Shown here piece by piece: positions 12,106-37,072 of a DNA stretch of 64,000 bases (within the stretch, counting starts at the first letter, position 1; the number at the start of each line of letters is the position of its first letter). A model generated the notes under the pieces. The model worked only from the letters and a program-made list of their open reading frames with translations, did no database searches and had not been told where the DNA came from. Made by a program: the position numbers and the translations under genes. The stretch is from Embleya scabrispora. Its GTDB lineage: Bacteria; Actinomycetota; Actinomycetes; Streptomycetales; Streptomycetaceae. The stretch covers positions 3,637,365 through 3,701,364 of the forward strand of contig NZ_MWQN01000001.1 in assembly GCF_002024165.1 (NCBI RefSeq), in the 5' to 3' direction.

Positions 12106-12179
12106 GCCGCCTTAGCTCAGTCGGCTAGAGCGACGCACTCGTAATGCGTAGGTCAAGGGTTCGACTCCCTTAGGCGGCT
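12106..12179 (+). tRNA. tRNA-Thr (anticodon CGT)
   Basis: A 74-nt cloverleaf. Acceptor GCCGCCT (12106-12112) pairs with AGGCGGC (12172-12178), and T is the discriminator. The anticodon stem ACGCA/TGCGT flanks loop CTCGTAA with anticodon CGT, which reads ACG threonine codons. The T arm is AAGGG TTCGACT CCCTT. CCA is not encoded. Its 3' 42 bases are duplicated at 14197, marking it as an integration target. Confidence 0.96.
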
Positions 12180-12180
12180 C
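12138..12180 (+). repeat. attL: 43-bp direct repeat within tRNA-Thr
   Basis: The 43 bases from the anticodon loop to one base past the tRNA are identical to 14197-14239. This is the usual footprint of a site-specific tRNA integrase. Confidence 0.88.
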
Positions 12181-12560
12181 ACTATATGGACAGGTAAGAC
12201 CCCGTTGACCTGGGGTTTTACCTGTCCATTGTGTTTTCTTGAAAAAGTAAAACTACATACAGTAGGAGAATGGTCGCCTAGGATCATGCTATGGGGACGA
12301 GTTGGGGGGACGCAAGAGTCCGCTCTTGTCATGATTTACGAGATCTATTCCTGGGTACAGGGAGATGCTTTTGTCCGATTGTCGGATGGAGCTGCTCGCT
12401 GAGTCTCACATTGCATTGCGCTCACCGGGGCCGTTCGATCGTCCGGCCGATGATCGTGTCCGCGTCCGGTTCGGCCAGTAGGCTGTGCCCGCACGGGGGA
12501 GAAGGATCGTTTCCTATGTCCCCGGGTATTGAGTATGCGAGCGATGGAAGGGGGCGGAGC
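12181..12560. other. Gene-free left part of the islet
   Basis: Holds the tRNA terminator (12187-12228), an AT-rich stretch unlike the flanks, a possible -10 TAGGCT at 12479-12484 for the antitoxin gene, and a GGAGAAGGA purine run near 12498. A 65-codon open frame (12205-12402) overlaps the terminator and has no ribosome-binding site, so it is not called. Confidence 0.5.
12187..12228 (+). terminator. Terminator of tRNA-Thr, supplied by the islet
   Basis: 17-bp arms TGGACAGGTAAGACCCC (12187-12203) and GGGGTTTTACCTGTCCA (12212-12228) carry one G-U pair and an 8-nt loop, followed by a T-rich run. It replaces the original terminator, now at 14244-14278. Confidence 0.85.
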
Positions 12561-13196
12561 ATGGCTTATTCGACGCGGATGGCTGCGGCCCTTTCGGGGG
12601 CGACCGCAGGCCAGATCCGGCACTGGCGCTATGACACCGGTCACGGCCCGGTCTTGGTCCCCGAGCTCGCGTCGAGGCCCCGTGCCCTCTATTCCTTCCG
12701 TGACGTCCTGGCCCTGCGTGCCGTCGTGTACCTCCGTCGCGAGGTGTCCCTCCAGAAGGTCCGCACCGCACTAGGCACCCTGCGCGGTTTCGGCGAACTC
12801 GAGCACCTGTCCTCGTACTCCCTGGCCACCGAGGGCGACACGATCGTCCTGGTCACCGAACGGGGTGGCATAGACCTGGTGAAGAAGCCCGGTCAGGTAC
12901 TCCTGGCGACCATGGCCGAGATCCTGGAGCCTTTCTCTACCCGGCCCGGCGTCGTCGTTCCGCGCCTCTTCCAGCCGCGACGCCACCTCACTGTCGACCC
13001 CCGCACCCAAGGCGGAGTGCCGGTCATCGCTGGCACGCGGGTCCCGTACGACGTCGTCGCCGAACTCGTCGAGGACGGCATCACACCCGACCGCGTCGCG
13101 GACTACTACCCGGCGGTCGGCCCCGAAGCAGCCCGGGACGCCGTCGACTTCGCCTTGTACGTCGACAGCTTCGGGCAAGGGGCTCAAGCCGTCTGA
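12561..13196 (+). CDS. Antitoxin: MerR-like HTH plus DUF433
   Basis: 211 aa. The N-terminal ~60 residues (ALSGATAGQIRHWR, then YSFRDVLALRAVVYLRR) resemble a MerR-type DNA-binding domain. The C-terminal ~70 residues (RTQGGVPVIAGTRVPYDVVA... PDRVADYYP) are a DUF433 domain, the antitoxin half of DUF433/DUF5615 pairs. It likely neutralises the downstream toxin and represses its own promoter. ATG 12561 is chosen because family members begin with a short MAY-type N-terminus; ATG 12516 with GGAGAAGGA upstream is an alternative adding 15 residues. Its stop overlaps the toxin start (TGATG). Confidence 0.8.
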   Translation: MAYSTRMAAALSGATAGQIRHWRYDTGHGPVLVPELASRPRALYSFRDVLALRAVVYLRREVSLQKVRTALGTLRGFGELEHLSSYSLATEGDTIVLVTERGGIDLVKKPGQVLLATMAEILEPFSTRPGVVVPRLFQPRRHLTVDPRTQGGVPVIAGTRVPYDVVAELVEDGITPDRVADYYPAVGPEAARDAVDFALYVDSFGQGAQAV

Positions 13197-13627
13197 TGCG
13201 CATCCTCATCGACGAGAACACCGCTGTACAACTCCTGGAGATCTTGCGGCATCTCCTGCCCCAGCACGAGGTACGGCACGTCACCGAGATCAAGTGGTCC
13301 GGGAAGAAGGACGTCCCCGTCCTCCTGGATGCCGGCAAACGCGGCTTCGACGTCTTCATCACCAAGGACGCCCACCAACTCGACGACCCCGATGAGACCG
13401 ACGCGATTAAACGCTCGCGCCTGCACCACGTCCGCTACGGCCAGAAAGAGCGAGGTCTCGCGGGCCTCGCCCTCGCCATTGGTGCCGTCGTCGCGGCCAC
13501 ACCGAGCATCATCAAAGACCTCGAACAGTGCGAGGGTCAACGCTTGGTTCACATCGCCGGCCTCAACCCCAAGCACCGCTACGAGATCGCCGACCCACGC
13601 AAGGAGCCACCCCGATATTGGCGATGA
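13196..13627 (+). CDS. Toxin: DUF5615 PIN-like (Mut7-C-like) ribonuclease
   Basis: 143 aa, starting inside the antitoxin stop codon and so translationally coupled to it. The N-terminus MRILIDEN and the later DVFITKDAHQLDD carry the conserved acidic residues of the DUF5615 PIN-like fold (Asp6, Glu7 and the Asp residues near 57 and 62). PIN-like toxins cut RNA, and this one probably does so when the antitoxin is lost. The protein is slightly longer than the ~110 residues usual for the family. Activity is inferred from family and arrangement only. Confidence 0.8.
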   Translation: MRILIDENTAVQLLEILRHLLPQHEVRHVTEIKWSGKKDVPVLLDAGKRGFDVFITKDAHQLDDPDETDAIKRSRLHHVRYGQKERGLAGLALAIGAVVAATPSIIKDLEQCEGQRLVHIAGLNPKHRYEIADPRKEPPRYWR

Positions 13628-14196
13628 CTCTCGCCAACTTCGCTGCACAGATTGAGATGACCGGGCAAACCGAGCCCGTTACGAAGGCCCGCGCCACCAC
13701 GTCGCGGCGCCGTCAAGTCCGCTGGTCCGCGCACCAGCTTGAACAAGGCGTTCGAGGCCGGTGCGCACTGGCTAGCGCAGGTGCGTGCCCCTCGTCGCGA
13801 CGACCGCGGGACTGCGACCTTCCCGAGGCGTCCCAATCGACTGCGGGAGCCGCGTTGGCCTCGCCGCCGCAGTGTGGTTCACCCGGCCTCCGGCGGAGGG
13901 TCGACGAGCACCAAAACATGCGTGCTTCGGCCCTTGATGGAGTGAATAGGAGCCTACTTGCGTGGGAATGGCGATACTCCGCCGCCCGGAACGCTGCGCA
14001 AGCAATCGCCTGGGGAGATGTTCTCAACCTCTTCCCCTGGGGACGCGCGTGTCCCTGATGGGGACGCTCAGGGGACGGGATAGGAAGGTTTGATGCCTAA
14101 GGATCGGGCAAGGCCGGGGCAGCGCAGGGCACTTGACCTCGTGCATTGCCGAAAGGCGGGGCAAGATCAGGAACGATCAGGGTGAACCTGTGGGCG

Positions 14197-14239
14197 CTCG
14201 TAATGCGTAGGTCAAGGGTTCGACTCCCTTAGGCGGCTC
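14197..14239 (+). repeat. attR: 43-bp direct repeat (3' half of tRNA-Thr)
   Basis: Perfect copy of 12138-12180. It lacks the 5' half of the tRNA, so it is an attachment site and not a second tRNA. Confidence 0.88.
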
Positions 14240-14243
14240 CCTC

Positions 14244-14278
14244 AAGGCCCAGGTCACATACCCCGTGACCTGGGCCTT
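14244..14278 (+). terminator. Original tRNA-Thr terminator, displaced by the islet
   Basis: Perfect 14-bp arms AAGGCCCAGGTCAC (14244-14257) and GTGACCTGGGCCTT (14265-14278), 7-nt loop, with a TTTT run (14277-14280) at its end. Confidence 0.85.
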
Positions 14279-14466
14279 TTCGTTCCCCGACTTTCGGGAC
14301 ACGCGCGCCACCCGCGGTCCCGTGGGAGGGTGGCGGCGAAGCCGGTCCGCACGCCCCGCCACCTGCCTCCTGTCGGCCGGGGATGATCACTGCCCGTGTC
14401 CAACGAGTCCGCTAGTGTCTCCTGGCATCTGCGTTCGAGTCGGTACGACCTCGGGGACGGCTTCTC

Positions 14467-14871
14467 ATGGACGAAGGCACCGGTGACGGCGGCGGTTTCG
14501 AGGTCACCCTCGACCACCTGCGCAAGACCGTCGACCCACTCATCGCATCGCTGCAGGTGGCCGATCAGATCTGGAAGGACGACGGCCAGATGGCCGCCGG
14601 GATCGAGCGTTGCGAGTCGGAGAAGATCACCAACTGTGTGCGGCGCTTCCTTCACGACTGGGGCCACGCCATGGGGGTGGTGGTCAAGCAGGGCACGTTC
14701 GTCGCGAGCGCGTTGCAACAGGTGATCGCCAACTACGAGTTGGCCGAGCGAAACGCCGAAGCGGGCTTCCGGCCGGTCTCGCCGCCCGGGCCGATCGAGC
14801 GGGTTTCGCAGCAGGCCGGACTGCCCCGGGCCGCCAATCCGCTCGCCCCGAATCCGCCGGCTGCGAAGTAG
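14467..14871 (+). CDS. Small helical protein encoded before the RHS toxin
   Basis: 134 aa with no family I can name. It looks mostly alpha-helical up to about residue 105, then a Pro/Ala-rich tail. It has no signal peptide or membrane segment. It ends 18 bases before the RHS gene and runs in the same direction, so it is very likely cotranscribed. Size, helicity and position fit an ESX/WXG100-type partner or chaperone of a type VII secretion substrate, but the W-x-G motif is absent here and occurs instead in the RHS protein. ATG 14467 is the first in-frame start. Confidence 0.6.
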   Translation: MDEGTGDGGGFEVTLDHLRKTVDPLIASLQVADQIWKDDGQMAAGIERCESEKITNCVRRFLHDWGHAMGVVVKQGTFVASALQQVIANYELAERNAEAGFRPVSPPGPIERVSQQAGLPRAANPLAPNPPAAK

Positions 14872-14889
14872 GGGAAAGGGAGCGCACGC

Positions 14890-17800
14890 ATGGGCAGGAA
14901 CAGCATTCCGGAATGCCCGGTCGTCACAGACCTCATACCGGGTGACCCGTCCGTTCTCGACGCTCTCGCCGACACGCTCTCGCGCTACGCGGCCTCGTCG
15001 GTCGAGTCGGCCGGCCGGATGCGTCCGCTGGCCAACGTGGAGGAGTGGGGCGGTCCGGCCGCAGAGGGCTTCGTCGGGCAGATGAAGGACCTGCCCAAGA
15101 CCATGGACAAGGGCGTCAAGCACTTCACCGACGCCGCGAACGCGTTACGTGGCTACGCCGCGACGTTGCGCCAGGCCCAGGCCGAGGTCGCCGGTCGCAT
15201 CATTCCGGATGCCAACTCGGCGCGTGCGTGGTCGGCTCAGTGGAAGCTGGATCGCGAGGCCGTCAAGAATGGCACGCTCCAGCAGTCCATGCCGGACAAG
15301 GATCTCGGCAAGGAGCGCCTCGACGAACTGGCGGACGAGCTGGGGGCGATCCGCAAACGCCTCGAGGGCGTCGAGGGCAACTGCTGCGACATCCTCCTCA
15401 AGGGCCGGGACGCCGCACCGTCCGGTGGCGACCCGATCACCACCTCCCTCAAGGCGTTCGGCGGGGGTGCCAAAGACGGTGTGACGGGCCTGTTGCAGAC
15501 CGCCCAGATGCTCAACCCGGGTCGTGCCTATGCGGAACCCGGTGCCTATGGCACCGATCTCCTGAACATAGCGCGCGGCTTCCAGCGGGTCATCAACGAT
15601 CCGGAGGGCTTTGCGAAGGACTTCGTCAACTGGGACGAGTGGCGCAAGAATCCGGCCAGGGCGCTCGGATTGGCTGTGCCCGACCTCACGCTGTCGGTGC
15701 TCACGGGCGGGGCCGGCAAGGGCGCCGGTCTTCTGAAACCCGATTTGCCCGGGAAGCCGGACGCGCCCAAGGCGCCGGACCCGGTGGACCTCACGAAGAA
15801 GGGTCGGCCCTGCGACTCACGCGAATCGTGCGGCGACCCGGTAGATCCCGTCACGGGAGAGGTGACGCTGACCGCGACCGACGTGTGCTTGCCAGGGGCG
15901 CTGCCCCTCGTGCTGGCACGCAGCCACGGATCGGCCTACCGTCATGGCCGCCGCTTCGGCAGGTCATGGGCCTCCACGCTCGACCAGCACATCGAACTGG
16001 ACGCGGCCGGGGTGGCGTTCCACGCGTCCGATGGCGTGACCTTGCGGTATCCGGTGCCCGAGCCGGGACAACTCGTCCTTCCCTACACCGGCTCCCGATG
16101 GCCGATGGCCTGGGACGGGGAGCCGGGCGGCGTGATCGTCATCAGCCAACCGAAGCTCGGGAGGACGCTTACGTTTCGCCCCACAACCCAGGGGTCGACC
16201 ATCCTCGACCTCGAATCGATCATCGACCGCAACGGCAATGCCATCGCCTACGACTATGACGACCAAGGCGTTCTGATCGGTGTACGGCACAACGGTGGCT
16301 ACCACATCGCTGTGGACTCCGAGGCTGACCGGATCGTCGGCTTGCGCCTGCTCGACGCCCATCCGGAGACGCATTTTCGGTCCCCTGGTGACGAACTGCC
16401 CCTCGTCCGCTTTACATACAGCGAAGCCGGAGAACTGGCAGGCGTGATCGACTCGTCGGGTGAACCCCAGTGTTTCGCCTACGACGACGAGCACCGCCTG
16501 ACGTGCTGGCAGGACCGCAACGGCACGACGTACCACTACGAATACGACGCCGGTCGCTGCAGTCGCACCCGCGGCCCGGACGGCTTTCTGGATGCCTCGT
16601 TCCATTATGACGACGAACGGCGTGTCACCTGCCACACCAACTCTCTCGGTGATGTCACCAAGTTCTTCTACAACGAATGGTCACAGGTCGAACGAATAAC
16701 CGACCCGCTGGGCAACTCCGTCACCAAGGAATGGGATCGGCAGCATCGACTACTCGCTCGGTATGATCAGCTGGGCCGGGCGACCCGATTCACGTATGAC
16801 GAATTAGGCAACAAGACACGGGAAATACGTCCGGACAACACGACGATCACCGCCGAGTACGATCCTATGTGCCTGCTCGTCCGGTTTGTCGGAGCGGGCG
16901 GAGCGGTCTGGTCGTTTTCGTACTCGGAAAGCGGAAACCTGCGCACCGTGACGAACCCGGTGGGGGCCACCACCTCCTACACCTCGGACCCTTCGGGCAA
17001 CATCGACTCGATCACGAACGCTCTTGGTGCAACGACGCGGGTGGTGCACGACGCGGCCGGCCTGCCGGCGAAGGTCATCGATCCGCTGGGGGCCGTCACA
17101 GCCTATGCGCGCGATGCCCTGGGGCGCGTGACTGTCGAAACCGGTCCGGACGGCGCCGTCACCCGCAGGAGGTGGACGGTCGAGGGGAGGCCGGCCGGGA
17201 ACGACCTTCCGGATGGCTCCCACGAGACGTGGGTCTGGGACCCCGAAGGCAACCTCATCGAGCGGCGGAACCCCGCAGGTTCGGTCACCCACTACGAAAT
17301 ATCATATTTCGACCTACCGTCCTCGCGTACCGAACCCGACGGCGCCCGATACGAATTCTCCTACGACACCGAACTGCGGCTCACCGGTGTGGTCAATCCT
17401 CTGGGGCAGAGGTGGAGCTACGAATATGACCCCGGGGGCCGCCTCGTGGCCGAGGTGGATTTCGACGGGCGTGAAGTGACGTACCGGCACGATCCGGCGG
17501 GCCGGCTGGTTCTCCGTAGCAACGGGGCAGCCGAGGCCGTGACCTATGAGCACGACGCCTCGGGTCGAGTGATCTCCCAGCGTCATGTCGATACCGGTCG
17601 TACCACGGCTTTCACATACGATCCTGCGGGGCGTCTGACCCGGGCGACGAACCCGGATGTCGATGTTGCATTCACTCGAGATGCCCTCGGTCGTGTAACG
17701 GCGGAAACCAGCAATGGTCGCACACTTTCCAGTGCATACGATGCCCTGGGCCGCCGAACCAGGCGGGAGACCCCCTCGGGGCATGTCAGCGAATGGACCT

Positions 17801-19344
17801 ATGACCTTGCAGGCCGCCCTGTGCTCATGCGGAGCGGTGCTCACCTTCTGGAATTCGCTCACGATACGGTGGGTCGTGAAATCGAGCGCCGTTTCGGCGA
17901 GCGGGTGGTATTCCATCAGGAATGGGACTCGGCTGATCGTGTCCTGGTACAGGCGATCACCCTTGGTGACCCTCGCAGCGCAGTCGAGAAGGCATTGGAT
18001 CCTGCTCGAAAAACGGGTGAGATCAATCGTCGTGCGTATTCCTATCGTGCCGACGGCCATGTCTCGACCATTGATGACACGGTAACCGGTCTCACGTCGT
18101 ACGATCTCGATGCAGTCGGCCGAATTACGGCGGTAACCGGGCGGGAGTGGGGCGAACACTACGCCTATGACGCTATCGGGAACCAAGTCGGTGCCGCCTG
18201 GTCGGGCGGGGGTTCCGGCGCTCAAGGACCTCGCAGTGTTGCCGGCACCCGAATTGCAAGGGCGGGTCGAACCCATTACCGGTACGACGATCAGGGGCGA
18301 ATAACCGGTTGTACACGAAAAACGCTCTCGGGTAAATCGAGAGTGTGGATCTTCGTTTGGGATCCGGACGACCGCCTGACCGACGTCACGACCCCGGACG
18401 GGGTGCGATGGAATTATATATACGACCCGCTTTCTCGTCGGACCTCCAAGCGTCCGGTCGACCGTGAGGGTAACCCCGGAGATTCGGTCGAATCGGTTTG
18501 GGATGGTACCTGTCTTTCGGAGCAGGAGGAACGCGAGGCGAGTTCGGGACATCGTTCGGCCACGACATGGATCCACCTCCCCGGAAGCCATCGTGTCGTA
18601 GCCCAGAGTCGACGCCGGACGGGCGACGTCGCGATACCGGAAGGAGGCAACAACCCTCGTTTCCATGCCGTCGAAACCGATAGAGTCGGGACCCCTGTCC
18701 AGTTGGTCGATGAGAATGGGAGGGTGGTTCGGCGTCCTCGGGCTTCTGCATGGGGAGCGGTCGGGTCGGAAGGCGCTGGTGACGAATCCTTTCCACTGCG
18801 GTTCCCCGGCCAATACTTCGATCCCGAAACCGGGTGGCATTACAATCTTTTTCGTTACTACGATCCCGAATCGTCGACATATGCTTCCCCCGACCCATGG
18901 GGCCTGGCTCCGTCGTCACACCCCTATGCCTACCCGAGAAATCCGCTTTCGCTCACGGATCCACTGGGACTCGTGCCCCACGAGTGCACAGGGCCCGGAA
19001 GTCTCGAAGGCAAGAGTGATCAGGACGTCTACGATCCCGCCGTGCCGAACAACGGCAGGAGGATCACGGACATCGATCACGTGGAGAATGGTGTGCTGTG
19101 GGAGCTGAAAACGGCTATAGGCGCCGGAAACATCGAAGAATGGATACCCAAACACATCACTAAAAAAATGACTGCCTATCTGGATGCACGCCAACATCTC
19201 CACGGTTACGAGCAGGCCCCCATCGGTCTCCGGTTCACGCGATCCGGAGCGGAACCGGCGTTTCGCCGAGAGGTGGAGAATGCAGTGAATCAGTTCCGGG
19301 CCGAGCATCCCGGTGTCGATGTGAGATTGGAATGGGCAGAATGA
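14890..19344 (+). CDS. RHS/YD-repeat polymorphic toxin with WXG-like head and REase-like tip
   Basis: 1484 aa. Residues ~10-130 are a helical WXG100-like domain with W53-G-G. A DUF6531-like segment begins near residue 315 (DPVDPVTGEV). YD repeats of the Y-x-Y-D...G-R type run from about 430 to 1300 and form the RHS shell. The RHS core ends at residue 1361 with SLTDPLGL. The 123-residue tip (1362-1484) holds D1396 and E1405-x-K1407 (VLWELKTA), a PD-(D/E)xK-like nuclease signature. Such proteins kill competitors; the WXG head suggests export by a type VII system, none of which is in the window. TTA codons at 15145 and 16804 suggest bldA dependence. GC visibly falls towards the tip. The ribosome-binding site is GGGGAAAGGGAG. 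Confidence 0.88.
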   Translation: MGRNSIPECPVVTDLIPGDPSVLDALADTLSRYAASSVESAGRMRPLANVEEWGGPAAEGFVGQMKDLPKTMDKGVKHFTDAANALRGYAATLRQAQAEVAGRIIPDANSARAWSAQWKLDREAVKNGTLQQSMPDKDLGKERLDELADELGAIRKRLEGVEGNCCDILLKGRDAAPSGGDPITTSLKAFGGGAKDGVTGLLQTAQMLNPGRAYAEPGAYGTDLLNIARGFQRVINDPEGFAKDFVNWDEWRKNPARALGLAVPDLTLSVLTGGAGKGAGLLKPDLPGKPDAPKAPDPVDLTKKGRPCDSRESCGDPVDPVTGEVTLTATDVCLPGALPLVLARSHGSAYRHGRRFGRSWASTLDQHIELDAAGVAFHASDGVTLRYPVPEPGQLVLPYTGSRWPMAWDGEPGGVIVISQPKLGRTLTFRPTTQGSTILDLESIIDRNGNAIAYDYDDQGVLIGVRHNGGYHIAVDSEADRIVGLRLLDAHPETHFRSPGDELPLVRFTYSEAGELAGVIDSSGEPQCFAYDDEHRLTCWQDRNGTTYHYEYDAGRCSRTRGPDGFLDASFHYDDERRVTCHTNSLGDVTKFFYNEWSQVERITDPLGNSVTKEWDRQHRLLARYDQLGRATRFTYDELGNKTREIRPDNTTITAEYDPMCLLVRFVGAGGAVWSFSYSESGNLRTVTNPVGATTSYTSDPSGNIDSITNALGATTRVVHDAAGLPAKVIDPLGAVTAYARDALGRVTVETGPDGAVTRRRWTVEGRPAGNDLPDGSHETWVWDPEGNLIERRNPAGSVTHYEISYFDLPSSRTEPDGARYEFSYDTELRLTGVVNPLGQRWSYEYDPGGRLVAEVDFDGREVTYRHDPAGRLVLRSNGAAEAVTYEHDASGRVISQRHVDTGRTTAFTYDPAGRLTRATNPDVDVAFTRDALGRVTAETSNGRTLSSAYDALGRRTRRETPSGHVSEWTYDLAGRPVLMRSGAHLLEFAHDTVGREIERRFGERVVFHQEWDSADRVLVQAITLGDPRSAVEKALDPARKTGEINRRAYSYRADGHVSTIDDTVTGLTSYDLDAVGRITAVTGREWGEHYAYDAIGNQVGAAWSGGGSGAQGPRSVAGTRIARAGRTHYRYDDQGRITGCTRKTLSGKSRVWIFVWDPDDRLTDVTTPDGVRWNYIYDPLSRRTSKRPVDREGNPGDSVESVWDGTCLSEQEEREASSGHRSATTWIHLPGSHRVVAQSRRRTGDVAIPEGGNNPRFHAVETDRVGTPVQLVDENGRVVRRPRASAWGAVGSEGAGDESFPLRFPGQYFDPETGWHYNLFRYYDPESSTYASPDPWGLAPSSHPYAYPRNPLSLTDPLGLVPHECTGPGSLEGKSDQDVYDPAVPNNGRRITDIDHVENGVLWELKTAIGAGNIEEWIPKHITKKMTAYLDARQHLHGYEQAPIGLRFTRSGAEPAFRREVENAVNQFRAEHPGVDVRLEWAE

Positions 19345-19700
19345 GCTGCTTCTTCGATATCGCCGGTGAGACCGTGTGGAATCCATCGCTGAGTGCGGGG
19401 AAACTCTTTGCTTCTGCCGTCGGGAATCTTGCTCAGCTCTATGGTCTCGATTCGGGTATCGTCGATGATTCATCGGATACCTATGAGATCGACCGGGAGG
19501 TCTTTCTGTCTTTTGCGGAGAGGATCTTCGATCGCTACTTCGCTACGTCTCATCCGGAGTATCGACTTCTGCTCCGGGGCGTACTTGTGATGTCCTTGGC
19601 TCTCTTGGAAAGAGGTGGGGTGATCCTGCGGGCGACGACCGCCGAGCAGGCCGAACTATTGGGTGAGGTGCACGAGCGCAGCGTGCGACTGCCGGTCTGA
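19341..19700 (+). CDS. Candidate immunity protein for the RHS toxin
   Basis: 119 aa, no family recognised. The ATG overlaps the toxin stop (ATGA at 19341-19344), so the two are translated together, the standard place for an immunity gene. The protein is acidic and mainly helical, with no signal or membrane segment, fitting a cytosolic protein that blocks a nuclease tip. Base composition is less GC-rich than in neighbours, like the toxin tip, so tip and immunity were probably acquired as one cassette. Function is inferred from position only. Confidence 0.7.
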   Translation: MSCFFDIAGETVWNPSLSAGKLFASAVGNLAQLYGLDSGIVDDSSDTYEIDREVFLSFAERIFDRYFATSHPEYRLLLRGVLVMSLALLERGGVILRATTAEQAELLGEVHERSVRLPV

Positions 19701-19805
19701 GTGGGTCGGGTGGCGACGCGGGGTGTGCGCCGAGAATCCGCAGAGACACAACGCCGTTGCGCTTGTTGCTGTGCGCTGGTGGGTGTTCGTGGTCGGTGTT
19801 CCCGG

Positions 19806-21041
19806 TCATGTCCAGAGGCGGTTGCCTAGGGGTTCGTCTGCCGTGCTGCCCGGGAGGATGTAGGCGACTGCTGAGGAGCGGTGTTCGAGGTAGGGGTTCA
19901 GCGCGTCTCGGGCTGCCAGGCGGGATTGGACTCGGGTGAACAAGGCTGGGTCGCGCATGTAGGCGCAGAAGAGGAGGCCTCTGTCGGTGGGGGCGTCGTC
20001 GTAGTTGTAGCTGCGGCGGAGCATGCGGGCGCCGGCGTCGAGGCGGGGGCTGGTGAGGCGGACGTGGGCCGTGGCCGGGATGATGTAGGAGCCGTCCGGG
20101 TTTTTGGCGTAGATGTCCGGGTCGTCGTGTTCGGTGGTGCCGGTCAAGGGGACGCCGTCGGTGGCTCGGCGGCCGATCATCTTGTTTTGGTGGTCCTGTG
20201 GGACGGCGGCGAAGGCGGCTACGTCCATGTGGATTTTGCGGAACACCAAGGTGGTTGCGTGTTCGTGGGCGCCCGGTGGGCCCCAGACCCAGCGTCCGGC
20301 GGTCGGGTCGTCGGGGTTGGCGGTGCCGTCCTTGAGGCCGAAGAGGTTGCGCGGGGTGATGCCCGGTGGGGTGTGGGGCAGGAAGCCGGATTGGGTCCAG
20401 CGGGGGACGGCGCCAGCGGACTGCGCGGCGGCGGTGGCCAGTTCGGCGACGATGGTGAGCGTCCAGCGGTCGGCGGCGCAGAGTTGGAGCAGTATGTCGC
20501 CGTTGCTGCGGGCCGGGTCCAGGCGGTCGCCGGGGAAGGCGGGCAGGTCGGCCAGTTCGGCGGGCACGTTCAGGGCGAGGCGGGTCGCGAGGCCGACGCC
20601 GACGCCGACGACGCAGGCCAGGCGGGTCGGCTCTCCGGTGTGCAGGCGCGGGTCGGGCAGTGTGCCGGCGGCCGCGCCGGACAGGGTGTGGGTCAGTGCG
20701 GCGAGGATGTTGCGCAGCGTCTCGCGGTCCGCGCCGGCGGTCGTCGGCGGGACGTCGAAGGACAGTATGTGGGTGGTGGGTAACTGAGGCCCCGTCACAC
20801 CGGCTTGGCGCAGGCCGTGGAAGGGGATCGCGGCCGTCGGCGGGGCGTCGGACGCGGTGTCGCGGCGCCGTGGTCGGCTCGCCTGCGGTTCCGCCGCCGC
20901 GCCCAGCGTTGCGGCCAGTGCCGCTCCGGTCGCGAGCAGGGCTCTGCGTCCCAAACCGGATGTGGCAGGTCGCGCCTGCTCCTGTCGACTTTCCGGGTCG
21001 GTATGCATGGGCGACATTGCAGACGATAGAACACCTGTCAT
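19806..21041 (-). CDS. DyP-type haem peroxidase, Tat-exported
   Basis: 411 aa. A twin-arginine signal (LGRRALLATGAALAATLGA) implies folding with haem before export. DyP hallmarks are GLKDGTANP (distal Asp in G-x-x-D-G), proximal His in TAHVRL, and the distal Arg in RMLRRSYNY. DyP enzymes oxidise dyes, phenolics or haem with H2O2; the Tat-borne type is related to EfeB, but no efeU or efeO gene is near. ATG 21041 has GGAG five bases upstream. It faces the beta-helix lipoprotein gene, and the two start codons overlap in one CATG. A TTA codon lies at 20783-20781. Confidence 0.9.
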   Translation of the reverse strand: MTGVLSSAMSPMHTDPESRQEQARPATSGLGRRALLATGAALAATLGAAAEPQASRPRRRDTASDAPPTAAIPFHGLRQAGVTGPQLPTTHILSFDVPPTTAGADRETLRNILAALTHTLSGAAAGTLPDPRLHTGEPTRLACVVGVGVGLATRLALNVPAELADLPAFPGDRLDPARSNGDILLQLCAADRWTLTIVAELATAAAQSAGAVPRWTQSGFLPHTPPGITPRNLFGLKDGTANPDDPTAGRWVWGPPGAHEHATTLVFRKIHMDVAAFAAVPQDHQNKMIGRRATDGVPLTGTTEHDDPDIYAKNPDGSYIIPATAHVRLTSPRLDAGARMLRRSYNYDDAPTDRGLLFCAYMRDPALFTRVQSRLAARDALNPYLEHRSSAVAYILPGSTADEPLGNRLWT

Positions 21042-31683: not shown

Positions 31684-32047
31684 CCCGCCGGGCGGGCCTG
31701 CCCTGCCCCGGCCACCTTGACGCCGTATGGTTTGTCGGCCCGTCGTCGGGCTCGGGCTTGCGATGGGGGTCGGTGACCCGACGCGCCGCACACGGGCATA
31801 TGACGGCCCACTCGTCTTGCGCGGTGCCACGCCTTGGTGCCGTCCGTCACCGGGTCACGCACCGGCCCTGGCACACGTGAGCGATTCGGCCTCGCGAGGT
31901 CGTCCTCCGCGCCACGCGTGCGGGTGAAGCTTCGGGCGGGGGGCGTGCCGCGAGGGGGGACGGGGCGGTCGGGGGCCCAGGATCGGGGCGGTCGACCCGA
32001 GATCGTGCCGGCTTCGGCCGGCGGGATCGCCAGTGCCGGAGGTACCC
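31684..32047. other. Intergenic region, no gene seen
   Basis: GC-rich with no coding signal in any frame that I trust. GGAGGT (32038-32043) near the end serves the next gene. Confidence 0.5.
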
Positions 32048-32776
32048 GTGTCCACCGCGTCCCCCACCCGAGTGCGCCGTGCGGGCGCCGCGGTATTCGC
32101 CTGCTGTGTCGTGCTGTTCGGGCCGGCGAGTGCGCGGGCCGACGTGCCCACCGATCGGGTGCGGCCGGTGGCGGACCCCCAGCCGGTGACGAACCCCCGA
32201 CCCGTGGCGGACCTTCGGCCGATCCCGCCGCCCGTGCCGCCGGCGCCGCCCGGGCTGCCCGGGCCGCGTGCCTTCGCCGACGTGGTGGGCACCCGCGCCG
32301 GGCAGTCGGTGAATGTCGCGGTCCTGGCCGACGACACCGGCGAGGGGCTCGTCGTGCTCTCGCACACCAACCCCGAACACGGTCTGGTCTTCCAGGCCGA
32401 GGACGCGACCGGGACGGACGCCGTGTTGCGCTACACCCCGGGGCCGGGCTTCGTCGGCCGGGACGACTTCCGCTACACGGTGAGCGACCGGTTCGGGCGG
32501 CAGGCCACCGCGAACGTGCGGGTCGAGGTGACACCGGCCACCGGCCGGGTACGGGAATCCACCGCGAGCCGCGTCGTGGACCGACTCCGCACCGCCCCGA
32601 CCGACGCGGCGAGCCGGCCGCGCTCGGCCGGGGCCGGGTCGGGCGGACGGGTGCTGCTCGTCGTGTTCCTGGGCTCGGCCGTGCTCGGCGCCGGCTTCCT
32701 GGCCCTGGTCGCGCGGCGTCGTCGGCCGCGCGCCCGGGCGGCTCACGCCTTCCGGTCGCCCTGGGCCGATCGGTAG
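32048..32776 (+). CDS. Secreted surface protein with one Ig/cadherin-like domain
   Basis: 242 aa. Signal peptide (to about residue 30, ending ASARA), then a Pro-rich stretch of imperfect PRPVAD repeats. One bacterial cadherin/Ig-like domain follows, marked by VGTRAGQSVNVAVLADD and YTPGPGFVGRDDFRYTVSD. A C-terminal hydrophobic helix and an RRRRPR stop-transfer close the protein. No LPXTG is present. GTG 32048 follows GGAGGT. It probably sits on the outer face of the membrane. The 3' end overlaps the convergent small gene by 34 bases. Confidence 0.75.
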   Translation: MSTASPTRVRRAGAAVFACCVVLFGPASARADVPTDRVRPVADPQPVTNPRPVADLRPIPPPVPPAPPGLPGPRAFADVVGTRAGQSVNVAVLADDTGEGLVVLSHTNPEHGLVFQAEDATGTDAVLRYTPGPGFVGRDDFRYTVSDRFGRQATANVRVEVTPATGRVRESTASRVVDRLRTAPTDAASRPRSAGAGSGGRVLLVVFLGSAVLGAGFLALVARRRRPRARAAHAFRSPWADR

Positions 32777-32937
32777 ACCCCGTACAGCACTTCGGCGATC
32801 CCGAGGATCAGCAGCACCACGCCGAGCTTTCCGGGTTCGAACACGGGTGGGTGCACATCGTCGGCGAACAGCTTCAGGCCCGCGCCCACCAGCGCGGTGA
32901 CCACGCCGGCCACTATCGAGCCGCGTGCCTTGGCCAC
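32743..32937 (-). CDS. Small two-helix membrane protein (DUF5708-like)
   Basis: 64 aa with two hydrophobic helices (residues ~7-25 and ~38-55) and a charged tail; resembles the DUF5708 small membrane proteins of streptomycetes. GTG 32937 is preceded by GGAGGAGG. Function unknown. Confidence 0.7.
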   Translation of the reverse strand: MAKARGSIVAGVVTALVGAGLKLFADDVHPPVFEPGKLGVVLLILGIAEVLYGVYRSAQGDRKA

Positions 32938-33103
32938 GGTCCGCCTCCTCCACTCGACCTGCGGATACGCCTACGAGGCTAGGGCCGCGTCCGGCGTCGG
33001 CACGCCCTCCCTCGGGACGAAGCGGCGTACACACTTCGGCCTAGAAGCGCGGGCCTGCGACGCGCGGTGCGCGGCGGTCGCACGTCCCGAAGAGCCGATC
33101 GCG

Positions 33104-33124
33104 GGTAGGGGGTCTATCCCTACC
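33104..33124. promoter_or_regulatory. Inverted repeat upstream of the ABC exporter
   Basis: GGTAGGG (33104-33110) and CCCTACC (33118-33124) with a 7-bp centre. It lies 46 bases before a -10-like TAGCGT (33170-33175), so it could be an operator or activator site. Confidence 0.4.
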
Positions 33125-33224
33125 ACCAAGTGGCCGGCCCACCCCATGGGCGGGCGCTTCGGGCACTTCTAGCGTGGATTCGACGCCGCCCACGGGGAGC
33201 GGCCGAGCCGGCTGGAGGGTCACC

Positions 33225-34052
33225 GTGGGCGGGCAACCGACACGCGAGCGGGAGTGGGACACGAGCGGAGCGAGGCATGCCGACGCCGGGGAACCGGCGG
33301 TCCGGCTCGACGCGGTTCGCAAGGTCCACGGGAAGGGCTCCGCCTCGGTCGCCGCGCTCGACGGGGTCTCGATCGCCTTCACGCCCGGCTCGTTCACCGC
33401 CGTGATGGGGCCGTCCGGCTCGGGCAAGAGCACCTTCCTGCACTGCGCGGCCGGCCTGGACCGGCCGACCTCGGGCGCGGTCACCGTGGCCGGGCAGGAT
33501 CTCGCCGAGCTGAACGAGAACGCGCTGACCAAGCTGCGTCGGGAACGGATCGGCTTCGTCTTCCAGGCGTTCAACCTGCTGCCCACGCTCACCGTGGAGC
33601 AGAACGTCACCCTGCCGCTGCGCTTCGCCGGCAAGCGGGCGAACCGGCACCACATCGCCGAGGTGATCGCGCGGGTCGGCCTCACCGACCGGGCCCGACA
33701 CCGCCCGCACGAGTTGTCCGGCGGCCAGCAGCAACGGGTCGCCATCGCCCGCGCGTTGGTGGTCCGGCCCGCCGTGCTGTTCGCGGACGAGCCGACCGGC
33801 GCGCTGGACACCCGGACCGCGGCCGAGGTGCTCGGGCTGCTCCGGGAATCGGTACACGTCGACGGCCAGACCATCGTCATGGTCACCCACGACCCGGTCG
33901 CCGCGTCCTACGCCGACCACGTGGTCTTCCTCGCCGACGGTCGGATCGCCGGCCGGCTCGCCGCGCCGACCGCGGACGCGATCGCGGACCGGATGACCCA
34001 CCTGGGCGCCTTCGAGGCCGGCCCGGGTCGGTCGGTGGGCGGGGTGCGCTGA
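33225..34052 (+). CDS. MacB-type ABC transporter ATPase
   Basis: 275 aa. Walker A GPSGSGKST, Q-loop FVFQAFNLLP, signature LSGGQQQR and Walker B AVLFADEPTGALD, as in LolD/MacB-type ATPases that work by mechanotransmission and not by substrate transport through a channel. It powers the FtsX-like permease encoded next, whose ATG overlaps this stop (TGATG). GTG 33225 is chosen for its GGAGGG site; an earlier in-frame GTG at 33174 overlaps the probable promoter. No two-component pair lies beside it, so the substrate (antibiotic, peptide or lipoprotein) is unknown. Confidence 0.9.
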   Translation: MGGQPTREREWDTSGARHADAGEPAVRLDAVRKVHGKGSASVAALDGVSIAFTPGSFTAVMGPSGSGKSTFLHCAAGLDRPTSGAVTVAGQDLAELNENALTKLRRERIGFVFQAFNLLPTLTVEQNVTLPLRFAGKRANRHHIAEVIARVGLTDRARHRPHELSGGQQQRVAIARALVVRPAVLFADEPTGALDTRTAAEVLGLLRESVHVDGQTIVMVTHDPVAASYADHVVFLADGRIAGRLAAPTADAIADRMTHLGAFEAGPGRSVGGVR

Positions 34053-36598
34053 TGTGGGGACTCGCGCTGCGCACGCTGCGCTTTCGGGCGGGCAGCTTCG
34101 TCGCGACCTTCGTCGCGCTGTGTTTCGGTGCCACCGTGGTGATGGCCTGTGGCGGTCTGCTCGAGACGGGCGTTCGCAACAACGCCCCGCCGCAACGCCT
34201 GGAGCGGGCCTCGTTGGCGGTGATCGGCGACCCCACCTACACCGGCCCGCGCGACGGCGACGGAGACCGCGAGCGGGACTACGCGCTGGGTGAGCGCGTC
34301 CCGTTGGACGAGGGCATGGTGGAGCGGGTGCGCGGCGTCGCCGGGGTGCGAGCGGCGGTCGGCGAGCGTACCTTCCGCACCGCGCTGATCGGTCCCGACG
34401 GCAACCGCAGGGCCCAGGGACACGCGTGGGAGTCCGCCCAGTTGACGCCGTACACCCTGGCCGGGGGCGCCGCGCCGGCCGGGCCGGACGAGGTGGTCCT
34501 GGACACCACGCTCGCGCGCCGCGCGGCGGTCGGGGTGGGCGACCGGGTCCGAATCGCCGCACACGGCGGGGCGCGCGCCTACCGGGTCAGCGGAATCGCC
34601 CGGCCCGCGCGCACGGTGCCGCAGGCCACGATGTTCTTCGCCGCGGCCGAGGCCGACCGGCTGTCCGCGCCCACCGGCGCCGTCGCGGACATCGCGATCG
34701 TGGCCGCGCCGGGCACCGACCTCGGCGCGCTGCGCAAGGCGGTGTCCCGCGCGGTGCACGACGAGCGGACCCGGATCCTGGCCGGGGACGATCGCGGCGC
34801 GGTCGAGCATCCCGAGATCCTGGCGAACAAGTCCGACCTGATCGCGCTGTCCGCGGTGTTCGGCGGCCTGGCCGTCGCGGTCGCGGTGTTCGTGGTGGCC
34901 GGGACGATCGGGCTGTCCGTACAGCAGCGGCGGCGCGAGTTCGCGCTGATGCGGGCGATCGGCGCCACCCCGCGCCAACTGCGCCGGATGTTGCTCGGCG
35001 AGACGCTCCTGGTCACCGTGCTCGCGGCGGGCGTCGCCTGGTTCACCGGCCCGGCGGCCGGGCGGGTGCTCTTCGATCGGCTGGTCGCCTCGGGCATGGT
35101 CGCCGAGACGGTGGAGTTCGAGCAGGGCTGGATCCCGGCGGTGGCCGCGGCGGGCGCGGTGCTGCTGACCGCGCTGGTCGGCGGGCTCGTCGGTGCCTGG
35201 CGGACGGTGGCCGCCAAGCCGACCGAGGCGCTGGCCGAATCCGCCTTCCGGCAGCGCTGGTTCAACTGGTTCCGGTTCGTGCTCGCGCTGATCGCGCTGG
35301 CCGGCGCCACCGCGCTGGGCCTGGTCACGATGTACGTGCTGGAGGGGCCCATGGCGGGGAGCACCGCGGGTCCGGCGGTGATCTGCGCGACGATCGGGCT
35401 GGCCCTGCTCGCTCCCGGATTGACCAAGCTGCTCGTCTGGATCCTGTACCGGCCGCTGGGCGCGCTGACCGGGCGGTCCGGGCGGATCGCGATGCTCGGC
35501 GCGCGGGTCACCTCGGTCCGCATGGCCTCGGCGGTCACCCCGATCATGCTGGCGGTCGCGATCAGCACCGGGGAGTTGTACCTCCAGACCACCACGACCG
35601 GACAGGCCGAGCGGGTGTACACGGAAAGCCTGCGGGCCGACGCGGTGCTGACCGCCGCGGTGGGCGGCGTGGACCCGGGCCTGGCCGAGCGGGTGCGGAC
35701 GATCCCGGGCGTGGCGAGCGCGAGCGCGTACACCGCGAGCGCGGGCTTCGTGGAGAACCCGCGTGTCACGCCGGACAGCCGGCACGGGGTGCCGATGCGG
35801 GGCGTCGACGTGGACACGGGCCTGGCAACGGTCGGGGTGACGGCCTCCGCCGGCTCGCTGGCCGAACTGCGCGGCGACACGGTGGCGTTGCCGAGGGCAC
35901 TGGCCCGGTCGATCCATCGCGGGCTCGGCGACACGATCCGGCTGCGACTCGGCGACGGCGCCTCGGCGGACGTCCGGGTGGTCGCACTGTTCGAGAGCCG
36001 GCCCGGCTACGACACCATGCTGCTGCCGGTGTCCCTGCTCGCGCCGCACACCACGGACGGGCTGCCCGCGCAGATCCTGGTCCGCGCGGCCGAGGGCACC
36101 GACCCCGACCGGCTGGTCGCCGCGCTGGGCGCCTGGGCCAAGGAGTACCCGGGGTTGCGGGCGGCCTCGCGCGAGGCGCTGCTCGAAACGCACGCCGAGG
36201 AGTCGAAGACCCAGGCGTGGGTCAACTATCTGATCATCGGCATGCTGACCCTGTACACCGCGTTGTCCCTGGTCAACTCGCTGATCCTGGCCACGCACAA
36301 CCGCCGCCGCGAGTTCGGGCTGCAACGCCTGAGCGGCGCGACCCGCGGCCAGATTCTGCGGATGTCGGCGGTCGAGGCGACGCTGACCACGCTGATCGGG
36401 GTCCTCCTGGGCACCGCGGCGGCGGCCGCGGCGGTGGTCCCGTTCAGCCTGTCGCTGACCGATTCGTGGCTGCCCATGGGCTCGATCCGGATCTACGCGG
36501 CCGTGGTCGGCACGGCGGCGGTGCTGACCTTCGCGGCGACGCTGCTGCCGACCTGGAGGGTGTTGCGGACGAACCCGGTGGCGGTGGCGCAGGGCTGA
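34052..36598 (+). CDS. FtsX-like ABC permease
   Basis: 848 aa, two FtsX modules. The N-terminal helix (residues ~15-35) is followed by a large extracellular MacB-PCD-like domain, a group of helices with QQRRREFALMRAIGATPRQL, then a second extracellular domain and a final FtsX group with RRREFGLQRLSGATRGQI. About ten membrane helices in all. It forms the membrane part of the exporter with the preceding ATPase. A hairpin terminator follows at once. Confidence 0.9.
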   Translation: MWGLALRTLRFRAGSFVATFVALCFGATVVMACGGLLETGVRNNAPPQRLERASLAVIGDPTYTGPRDGDGDRERDYALGERVPLDEGMVERVRGVAGVRAAVGERTFRTALIGPDGNRRAQGHAWESAQLTPYTLAGGAAPAGPDEVVLDTTLARRAAVGVGDRVRIAAHGGARAYRVSGIARPARTVPQATMFFAAAEADRLSAPTGAVADIAIVAAPGTDLGALRKAVSRAVHDERTRILAGDDRGAVEHPEILANKSDLIALSAVFGGLAVAVAVFVVAGTIGLSVQQRRREFALMRAIGATPRQLRRMLLGETLLVTVLAAGVAWFTGPAAGRVLFDRLVASGMVAETVEFEQGWIPAVAAAGAVLLTALVGGLVGAWRTVAAKPTEALAESAFRQRWFNWFRFVLALIALAGATALGLVTMYVLEGPMAGSTAGPAVICATIGLALLAPGLTKLLVWILYRPLGALTGRSGRIAMLGARVTSVRMASAVTPIMLAVAISTGELYLQTTTTGQAERVYTESLRADAVLTAAVGGVDPGLAERVRTIPGVASASAYTASAGFVENPRVTPDSRHGVPMRGVDVDTGLATVGVTASAGSLAELRGDTVALPRALARSIHRGLGDTIRLRLGDGASADVRVVALFESRPGYDTMLLPVSLLAPHTTDGLPAQILVRAAEGTDPDRLVAALGAWAKEYPGLRAASREALLETHAEESKTQAWVNYLIIGMLTLYTALSLVNSLILATHNRRREFGLQRLSGATRGQILRMSAVEATLTTLIGVLLGTAAAAAAVVPFSLSLTDSWLPMGSIRIYAAVVGTAAVLTFAATLLPTWRVLRTNPVAVAQG

Positions 36599-36620
36599 CC
36601 GGCCCGGTCGCCCGGGCCGG
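36599..36620 (+). terminator. Hairpin after the ABC exporter operon
   Basis: 9-bp arms CCGGCCCGG (36599-36607) and CCGGGCCGG (36612-36620) with a 4-nt loop; the left arm begins right after the stop codon. Confidence 0.6.
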
Positions 36621-37072
36621 GGCGGCGGTCGACGTACCGTAGTACCGGCCGTGTTCAGGCCACCGACCGCTCGCCGCCGGGATCCACGTCCAGCACGCGC
36701 AGACAGAAGCCGACCATCGCCTCGGCCCCGGTGCCGCGTGCGGCCGGCCGGGGAGAACCGTTTCGCTCACTTACAGGACTGCGCGTTGCCGGGTGGTTCG
36801 TCGCCGACGGTCGCGACGAACGATCGGCTCGGTGGCGGGTGCGATCGAGGTCGGACACGCCGGGTGAGGCATCCGGGTGATGATTCGTGACTCTTGCTCC
36901 GGTTCTTTCTAGCCTCGGGCCGAGACACCGATCGGGGATCGAGGCCGTCGAGCGCCGAGGCCGTGTCCTCGGTCCTGCCGGGACTGCGCCCCCGGCAGGA
37001 TCGGGGAGACGGTCCCGACCGGCGGTGCTCGGCGGCATGCGCACGAACCGGACCGCGCAGAGGAGCACATCG
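36621..37072. other. Intergenic region with a possible promoter
   Basis: No convincing gene. GTGACT (36887-36892) and TAGCCT (36910-36915), 17 bases apart, may drive the small gene at 37073 through a 150-nt leader. Confidence 0.4.

Follow-up and report, generated by a model that had tools for sequence, protein, structure and literature searches.

Several described systems resemble the locus analyzed here. CIMEs and accretion are defined in the corresponding section of PMC5704250. In Streptomyces, the part of PMC9513070 considered here reports the decay and accretion of AICEs, their insertion in tRNA-Thr genes, and decayed elements (DAICEs, recognised by traB) that have kept part of the integrase, cargo and the two repeats, and a section of PMC3218068 gives a tRNA-Thr integrase group, that of the pSE211-type AICE. 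Concerning possible cargo, the relevant passages of PMC2701414 present PIN-DUF433 pairs in which DUF433 is fused to a DNA-binding HTH (for example Rv2018 with Rv2019), and stabilisation of islands by toxin-antitoxin (TA) systems is a subject of PMC5006074 and PMC8978831. The present analysis concerns a 2-kb islet integrated at a tRNA-Thr gene, whose kind is already known; what is new is its minimal size, the retention of its end code and indications that this minimal form spreads.

The window, i.e. the whole stretch of 64 kb that was analyzed (G000:C1:3637365-3701364), comes from a genome of 10.96 Mb and contains a single tRNA gene according to ARAGORN. The features of the islet and of its borders are:

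12106..12180, + strand: tRNA-Thr(CGT) (ARAGORN)
12138-12180, + strand: attL core, 3' half of the tRNA (exact 43-bp repeat)
12186..12229, + strand: terminator-like hairpin after the tRNA, element side, 18-nt arms (inverted repeat; aligned in G003 and G001)
12293..12312, + strand: putative left integrase arm site, GGGGACG at 12293 and 12306 (end-repeat search; G001/G003 alignment)
12561..13196, + strand: MerR-HTH/DUF433 antitoxin, 211 aa, start chosen from homologues (Pfam, PDB profile, alignment)
13196..13627, + strand: PIN_10/DUF5615-like toxin, 143 aa (Pfam; invariant acidic residues)
14039..14077, + strand: putative right integrase arm site, GGGGACG at 14039, 14060 and 14071 (also in the G003 islet)
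14197..14239, + strand: attR core, where the 43 bp of the tRNA 3' half recur
14240..14297, + strand: displaced tRNA terminator, chromosomal side, outside the islet (84% match near the G001 junction)

ARAGORN and the repeat search gave exact coordinates for the two copies of the tRNA-Thr(CGT) 3' half that the initial annotation had seen around 2.06 kb of DNA. No third copy of the 43-bp core was found in the window at up to three mismatches (0 in 100 shuffles), and the 39-base inner part of the core, with the same tolerance, matches only the two islet sites in the whole genome. If the islet was integrated as proposed, the tRNA 3' half in attL would be supplied by the element. The interior is AT-richer as claimed (63.9% GC compared to 71.0% for the whole window), and the claimed absence of an integrase was borne out by the lack of any PF00589 match at E <= 0.001 in the window. 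The three islet ORFs scanned with Pfam revealed TA domains only, with no TraB/FtsK domain, and the longest listed ORF inside the islet (301 aa, in the antitoxin frame) is too short for a usual traB.

The islet is therefore CIME-like in being bounded by attL and attR (two 43-bp cores, compared to a single core in islet-free genus mates) and in having no integrase or transfer gene found by the PF00589 search over the window and by Pfam on the three ORFs; moreover, it appears to lie in tandem near an integrase-bearing segment in another genome, that of Streptomyces sp. SID3343 (G003). It departs from CIMEs by its size of 2 kb with a TA pair, its kept matching end repeats and the apparent spread of its minimal form between species. 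The host family, the tRNA site and the loss of the integrase with both repeats kept recall the DAICEs as presented in the part of PMC9513070 considered here, but these are recognised by traB, whereas the ORF list and Pfam on the three ORFs revealed in the islet neither an integrase fragment nor an ORF of usual traB length. The pSE211-type AICE, as described in that section of PMC3218068, shares a tRNA-Thr target with the islet (anticodon not compared) but carries its own integrase, as an autonomous tRNA genomic island would.

Two genomes of the same genus (G001 and G002) corroborate the integration proposed by the initial annotation, as each contains one core copy and no islet at this tRNA. 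The expected empty sites were found only in part: these sites are islet-free, but they are not clean empty sites, since the tRNA is followed by 1.4 kb of other DNA in G001 and 0.9 kb in G002 before the match to the window resumes at 19803-19806. A second core in islet-free relatives, which the initial annotation had named as an objection to the islet, was not found in the islet-free ones among three genus mates. Furthermore, the idea that the original terminator was displaced beyond attR is supported because the 58 bases that follow attR (14240-14297) show an 84% match to DNA close to the G001 chromosomal junction. G001 and G002 lack not only the islet but also, at this position, the RHS-encoding DNA that follows (14298-19800), so that two variable segments lie side by side; the RHS segment was either gained in the window or lost in G001 and G002, and no core copy is found at its right end. 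It encodes, at 14890-19344, an RHS-repeat protein carrying a T7SS secretion-signal domain (GC content of 63.5% for 14240-19800), followed by a 122-aa ORF (19332-19700) that is perhaps an RHS immunity gene, and it has only partial matches (63-70%) longer than 100 bases elsewhere in the genus. Farther away, the stretch 31870-36681 of the window appears inverted in G001, between collinear blocks.

Throughout Streptomycetaceae, the tRNA-Thr(CGT) gene is a hotspot of insertion where tandem arrays and segments lacking an integrase are found, so that other elements do occupy this site, a point that the initial annotation had proposed to check. The core pattern was matched in 358 of 394 family genomes; at least two exact copies are present in about 120 of the 394 (hand count of the table), and eleven in two genomes. 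These two (G164 and G022), each with five of the copies on one contig, are natural material for a study of accretion. Two or more cores were found in 13 of 20 hand-picked loci of relatives. Overall, 31 core-to-core segments of 1.7 to 17.6 kb were delimited, 11 with an integrase and 20 without according to our own HMM, which was seeded from 11 integrases, seven of them from the segments themselves; the PF00589 cross-check of the integrase-less calls covered six of the 20 (L038, L039, L050, L139 and L144 twice) and the window. Because the first 20 loci were hand-picked, mostly as strong matches, and the second 20 were also chosen by hand, often because of closely spaced cores or of more than one copy, these counts do not represent a random sample. 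In L043 and L052, an integrase-bearing segment is directly followed by an integrase-less one. Genes located near attR in segments called integrase-less include VapBC (L139), a PIN gene (L047) and an OLD-like nuclease (L148), and a 2.5-kb segment of L043 has an AbiEii fragment beside a transposase gene near attR; 17 of the 23 proteins scanned, mostly from right-end ORFs, gave no TA or defence match. The L139 element (G132, segment 1115-6532 in tRNA orientation, 5.4 kb) also encodes a large protein (1207 aa) with a sub-cut-off AAA/STAND match and without PADLOC match. The smallest segment (1.7 kb between tRNA-Thr cores; L137, in G200) contains a flavoprotein-domain gene and an ORF that extends to 7 bp from attR.

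Tyrosine integrases bind arm-type sites, and the ends of the islet were considered by analogy with such sites. The direct repeat GGGGACG is present twice at the left end and three times at the right end. In the window, the pattern GGGGAC-N4..7-GGGGAC occurs only twice, both times on the + strand and once per islet end (mononucleotide expectation of 0.19 per strand), and it occurs three times in 2.1 million strand-bases of relatives, two of which are in the G003 islet; the left spacing of GGGGACG is 13 in the window islet compared to 11 in G003. A spaced motif common to both ends of the window islet was reproduced by none of 1000 shuffles for a 7-mer and by one of 1000 for a 6-mer. At this tRNA, 16 of the 31 segments, besides the window islet, share a spaced motif of at least six bases between both ends and 15 have none, and for any segment at most one of 1000 shuffles reproduced such a motif. 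The general plan is a direct repeat placed at about -138 relative to the right core, its copies mostly spaced by 11 bp; many segments also have this motif near the left core, at a distance specific to each motif group: +91 for TGCGTGAG, about +203 for CGGTGGAC, +224 for AGGGGAGC and +112 for the GGGGACG of the islet. Since both islet ends share GGGGACG and many other elements have their own matching repeats, these repeats look like integrase arm-type sites. Their similar rate in segments without (11 of 20) and with an integrase (5 of 11, own HMM) suggests, in this small and non-random sample, that they are in use. Among the papers listed by literature searches, we recognised none that describes matched end repeats in integrase-less tRNA islets. 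In G001, the insertion that follows tRNA-Thr (L035, 786-2200) has an islet-like left terminator, then TGGGGACG at the same offset, both aligning with the islet end, whereas the stretch that separates them hardly aligns; it carries a tectonin gene as cargo and no attR core, and seems to be a fossil with the arm type of the islet.

The integrase expected to read this code was searched for in the same genomes. The islet ends (core left out) were found among the 394 family genomes only in G000 and G003, with the left end alone in G001, and the arm-plus-core pattern only in G000 and G003, none of these genomes yielding an integrase with GGGGACG arms. The initial annotation had also pointed to a possible integrase elsewhere in the source genome using the 43-bp core; none emerged, as the 10 loci covering the 11 PF00589 matches of this genome contain neither a GGGGAC pair nor tRNA-Thr(CGT). 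The best relative of a tRNA-Thr-site integrase in this genome (C1:3089610), 50% identical to the L043 integrase, was discarded since it lies beside tRNA-Lys(TTT) and not tRNA-Thr.

Between its ends, the islet carries a pair that is probably an addiction module, a type II TA system, judging from its domains. The MerR/DUF433 antitoxin announced by the initial annotation exceeds the Pfam cut-off for both MerR_1 and DUF433, whereas DUF5615 falls just below it for the toxin (22.4 vs 23.8 bits), which exceeds that of PIN_10 instead. A DUF433 gene thus adjoins a PIN gene, the domain pair of PIN-COG2442 (DUF433) type II TA systems; unlike in these, the pair is here the main cargo of an att-bounded islet and its toxin matches PIN_10 and, just under the cut-off, DUF5615. 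The toxin start overlaps the antitoxin stop as TGATG. Searches of PDB with the antitoxin profile retrieved 5AF3 (E 5.5e-4) and 2GA1 (E 1.1e-3), and the toxin profile retrieved no chain at E <= 0.1. The predicted toxin structure (pLDDT 93.6) matches generic alpha/beta folds, with no PIN chain among the best 50 matches listed in either fold search, and PADLOC and NCBIfam gave nothing for the pair at E <= 0.001. Residues D6, E7, D39, D58 and E67 of the toxin are invariant in 22 sequences; the structure alignment retained 21 homologues from 52 loci, L179 and L192 (in-frame stops), short ones and several others being dropped. Both TA genes were matched in 22 of 22 homologous loci, partially in L118 and L134. 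According to the comparison of G000 and G003 (dN/dS of 0.021 for the antitoxin and 0.053 for the toxin), the TA genes are under purifying selection.

The same TA family is found in other elements. Toxin homologues are present in 29 of 249 family genomes, and the GTDB scan gave 52 loci, 15 of which include a tRNA within the retrieved DNA (at most 8 kb on each side), a proportion without matched baseline from which we claim no enrichment. Five of the loci (L170, L171, L172, L175 and L204, all from Streptomyces) lie 0.3-1.5 kb from tRNA-Gly(CCC), with no exact tRNA repeat of at least 20 bases within the fetched stretch. Four TA loci are located inside elements with a tRNA repeat:

L174: S. longisporoflavus, tRNA-Thr(CGT), 5.9 kb, TA pair 0.27 kb from attR
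L177: tRNA-Thr(TGT), 25-bp repeat, 7.1 kb
L128: G002, tRNA-Pro(CGG), 7.2 kb
L180: MAG, tRNA-Arg(CCT), 9.1 kb

Only integrase fragments were found in L174, L177 and L128; that of L174 is a 133-aa ORF of which 78 aa align with the L054 integrase at 97% identity. In these three elements, the TA pair is oriented opposite to the tRNA, and its antitoxin gene lies beside attR, the distal core, at a distance of about 0.27 to 0.36 kb. L180 has an open integrase frame; its TA pair, like that of the islet, has the orientation of the tRNA, and it ends 2.3 kb from the distal core. The arm repeat of L174 and L177 is TGCGTGAG, L128 has another one, and none is GGGGACG. Because of this different arm repeat and of the opposite TA orientation, the partly decayed L174, L177 and L128 are analogues of the islet and not its ancestors.

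G003, an assembly of 1650 contigs with 7% contamination, also has an integrase-less islet, whose identity to that of the window is 96% over 1.55 kb (1548 bp). Identical positions amount to 360/378 in the left noncoding part, 615/633 in the antitoxin gene, 419/432 in the toxin gene and 167/192 in the right noncoding part, the last (about 190 bases) being only 87% identical; the window block 13681-14004 (about 320 bp) is largely missing from the G003 islet. The antitoxin genes differ by 18 changes in 636 nt (one nonsynonymous; dS 0.105) and the toxin genes by 13 in 432 nt (two nonsynonymous; dS 0.116). Since the dS of the single flanking gene compared, encoding a hydrolase, is 0.50, i.e. four- to five-fold above that of the islet genes, the islet looks younger at this locus than the G000/G003 split, which suggests that this minimal form moved horizontally between both lineages; vertical inheritance of the islet genes, which the initial annotation had held to be incompatible with integration, was thus not seen by this one-gene comparison. 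Upstream of the G003 islet lies a core that has non-tRNA DNA before it; we read this core as the attR of another segment. A PF00589 integrase adjoins the tRNA-Thr of G003 on another contig, not joined to the islet contig. We infer a tandem accretion, which would allow cis mobilisation.

Different scenarios could account for these observations. That the second core arose from a chance or old duplication of the tRNA, with no link to mobility, is hardly credible: stray core copies do lie megabases apart in a few genomes (such as G158), but the repeat has 43 identical bases and does not arise in shuffles, the same core is reused in tandem segments of several genomes, and the islet-free G001 and G002 have a single core, so that we rejected this explanation. 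Spread between G000 and G003 by homologous recombination or by uptake of a large chromosome piece, rather than by site-specific recombination, is improbable as well. Although flanking homology could have guided such an exchange, since both islets appear to lie at the same locus, the high identity is confined to the islet: the left flank is about 80% identical over 1830 bp and on the right an 86% match extends through the terminator and stops some 40 bases beyond attR.

The initial annotation had opposed a remnant kept by toxin addiction to a satellite moved by the integrase of another element. Both ideas fit and do not exclude each other, the first as an origin, because larger elements of other species have the same TA family near attR together with integrase fragments, and the second as a present state, because the end repeats are kept and the minimal islet has apparently been transferred. 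A strictly immobile remnant, i.e. a larger element decayed in place that left a selfish TA pair and att scars without any present movement, is the most serious rival and appears rather unlikely. It would agree with the decayed AICEs reported in Streptomyces in the cited part of PMC9513070, with the existence of L174, L177 and L128, with the failure to find a matching integrase in the 394 genomes or at the loci of the own genome, with the left arm spacing being off by two in the window islet and with the G001 insertion, a fossil that has this left end but no attR. However, it accounts poorly for a G003 islet whose dS (about 0.11) is so far below that of the flanking gene, and for end repeats kept in G003 and, for the left end only, in G001. 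We therefore favour, as the probable explanation, a CIME-like non-autonomous integrative element, stabilised by its TA pair and moved in cis or in trans by the integrase of another element. Several results weigh against it: no integrase with GGGGACG arms was found in the 394 genomes or at the own-genome loci, L174, L177 and L128 differ in arm repeat and TA orientation, 15 of the 31 segments have no shared motif, the left spacing in the window islet is 13, the transfer is judged from one flanking gene and a contaminated G003 assembly, the right noncoding part is less similar to G003 and the fold searches did not favour PIN chains. A larger tyrosine-integrase element carrying the TA pair would have given rise to the islet by internal deletion. 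As the end sequences are present and the integrase is absent, the islet looks like a stripped-down hitchhiker that would have to borrow the enzyme of another element: the GGGGACG repeats would serve as arm sites, and an integrase with the same core and arm specificity would move it, either alone in trans or in cis as part of a tandem composite. The DUF433 antitoxin would be labile and the PIN-like toxin would poison the cells losing the islet, which would thus be kept.

A broader and more tentative view is that of a class of integrase-less satellites at Streptomycetaceae tRNA genes, each made of a core, a private arm code and cargo and moved in trans by a resident integrase, which would be borrowed as MITEs borrow a transposase. 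Under the same tentative view, the cargo could be addiction, defence or other genes, and the islet would be the minimal TA member, with the GGGGACG code of an integrase not yet seen.

Overall, the islet suggests what a tRNA-targeting element may need at minimum: an addiction pair, together with att cores and arm repeats. Should the proposed reading of the arm code be right, sequence could predict which integrase moves which integrase-less island, and the distinction between a dead scar and a live satellite would become testable by PCR. It may also bear on the presence of TA genes close to the distal end in some tRNA islands.
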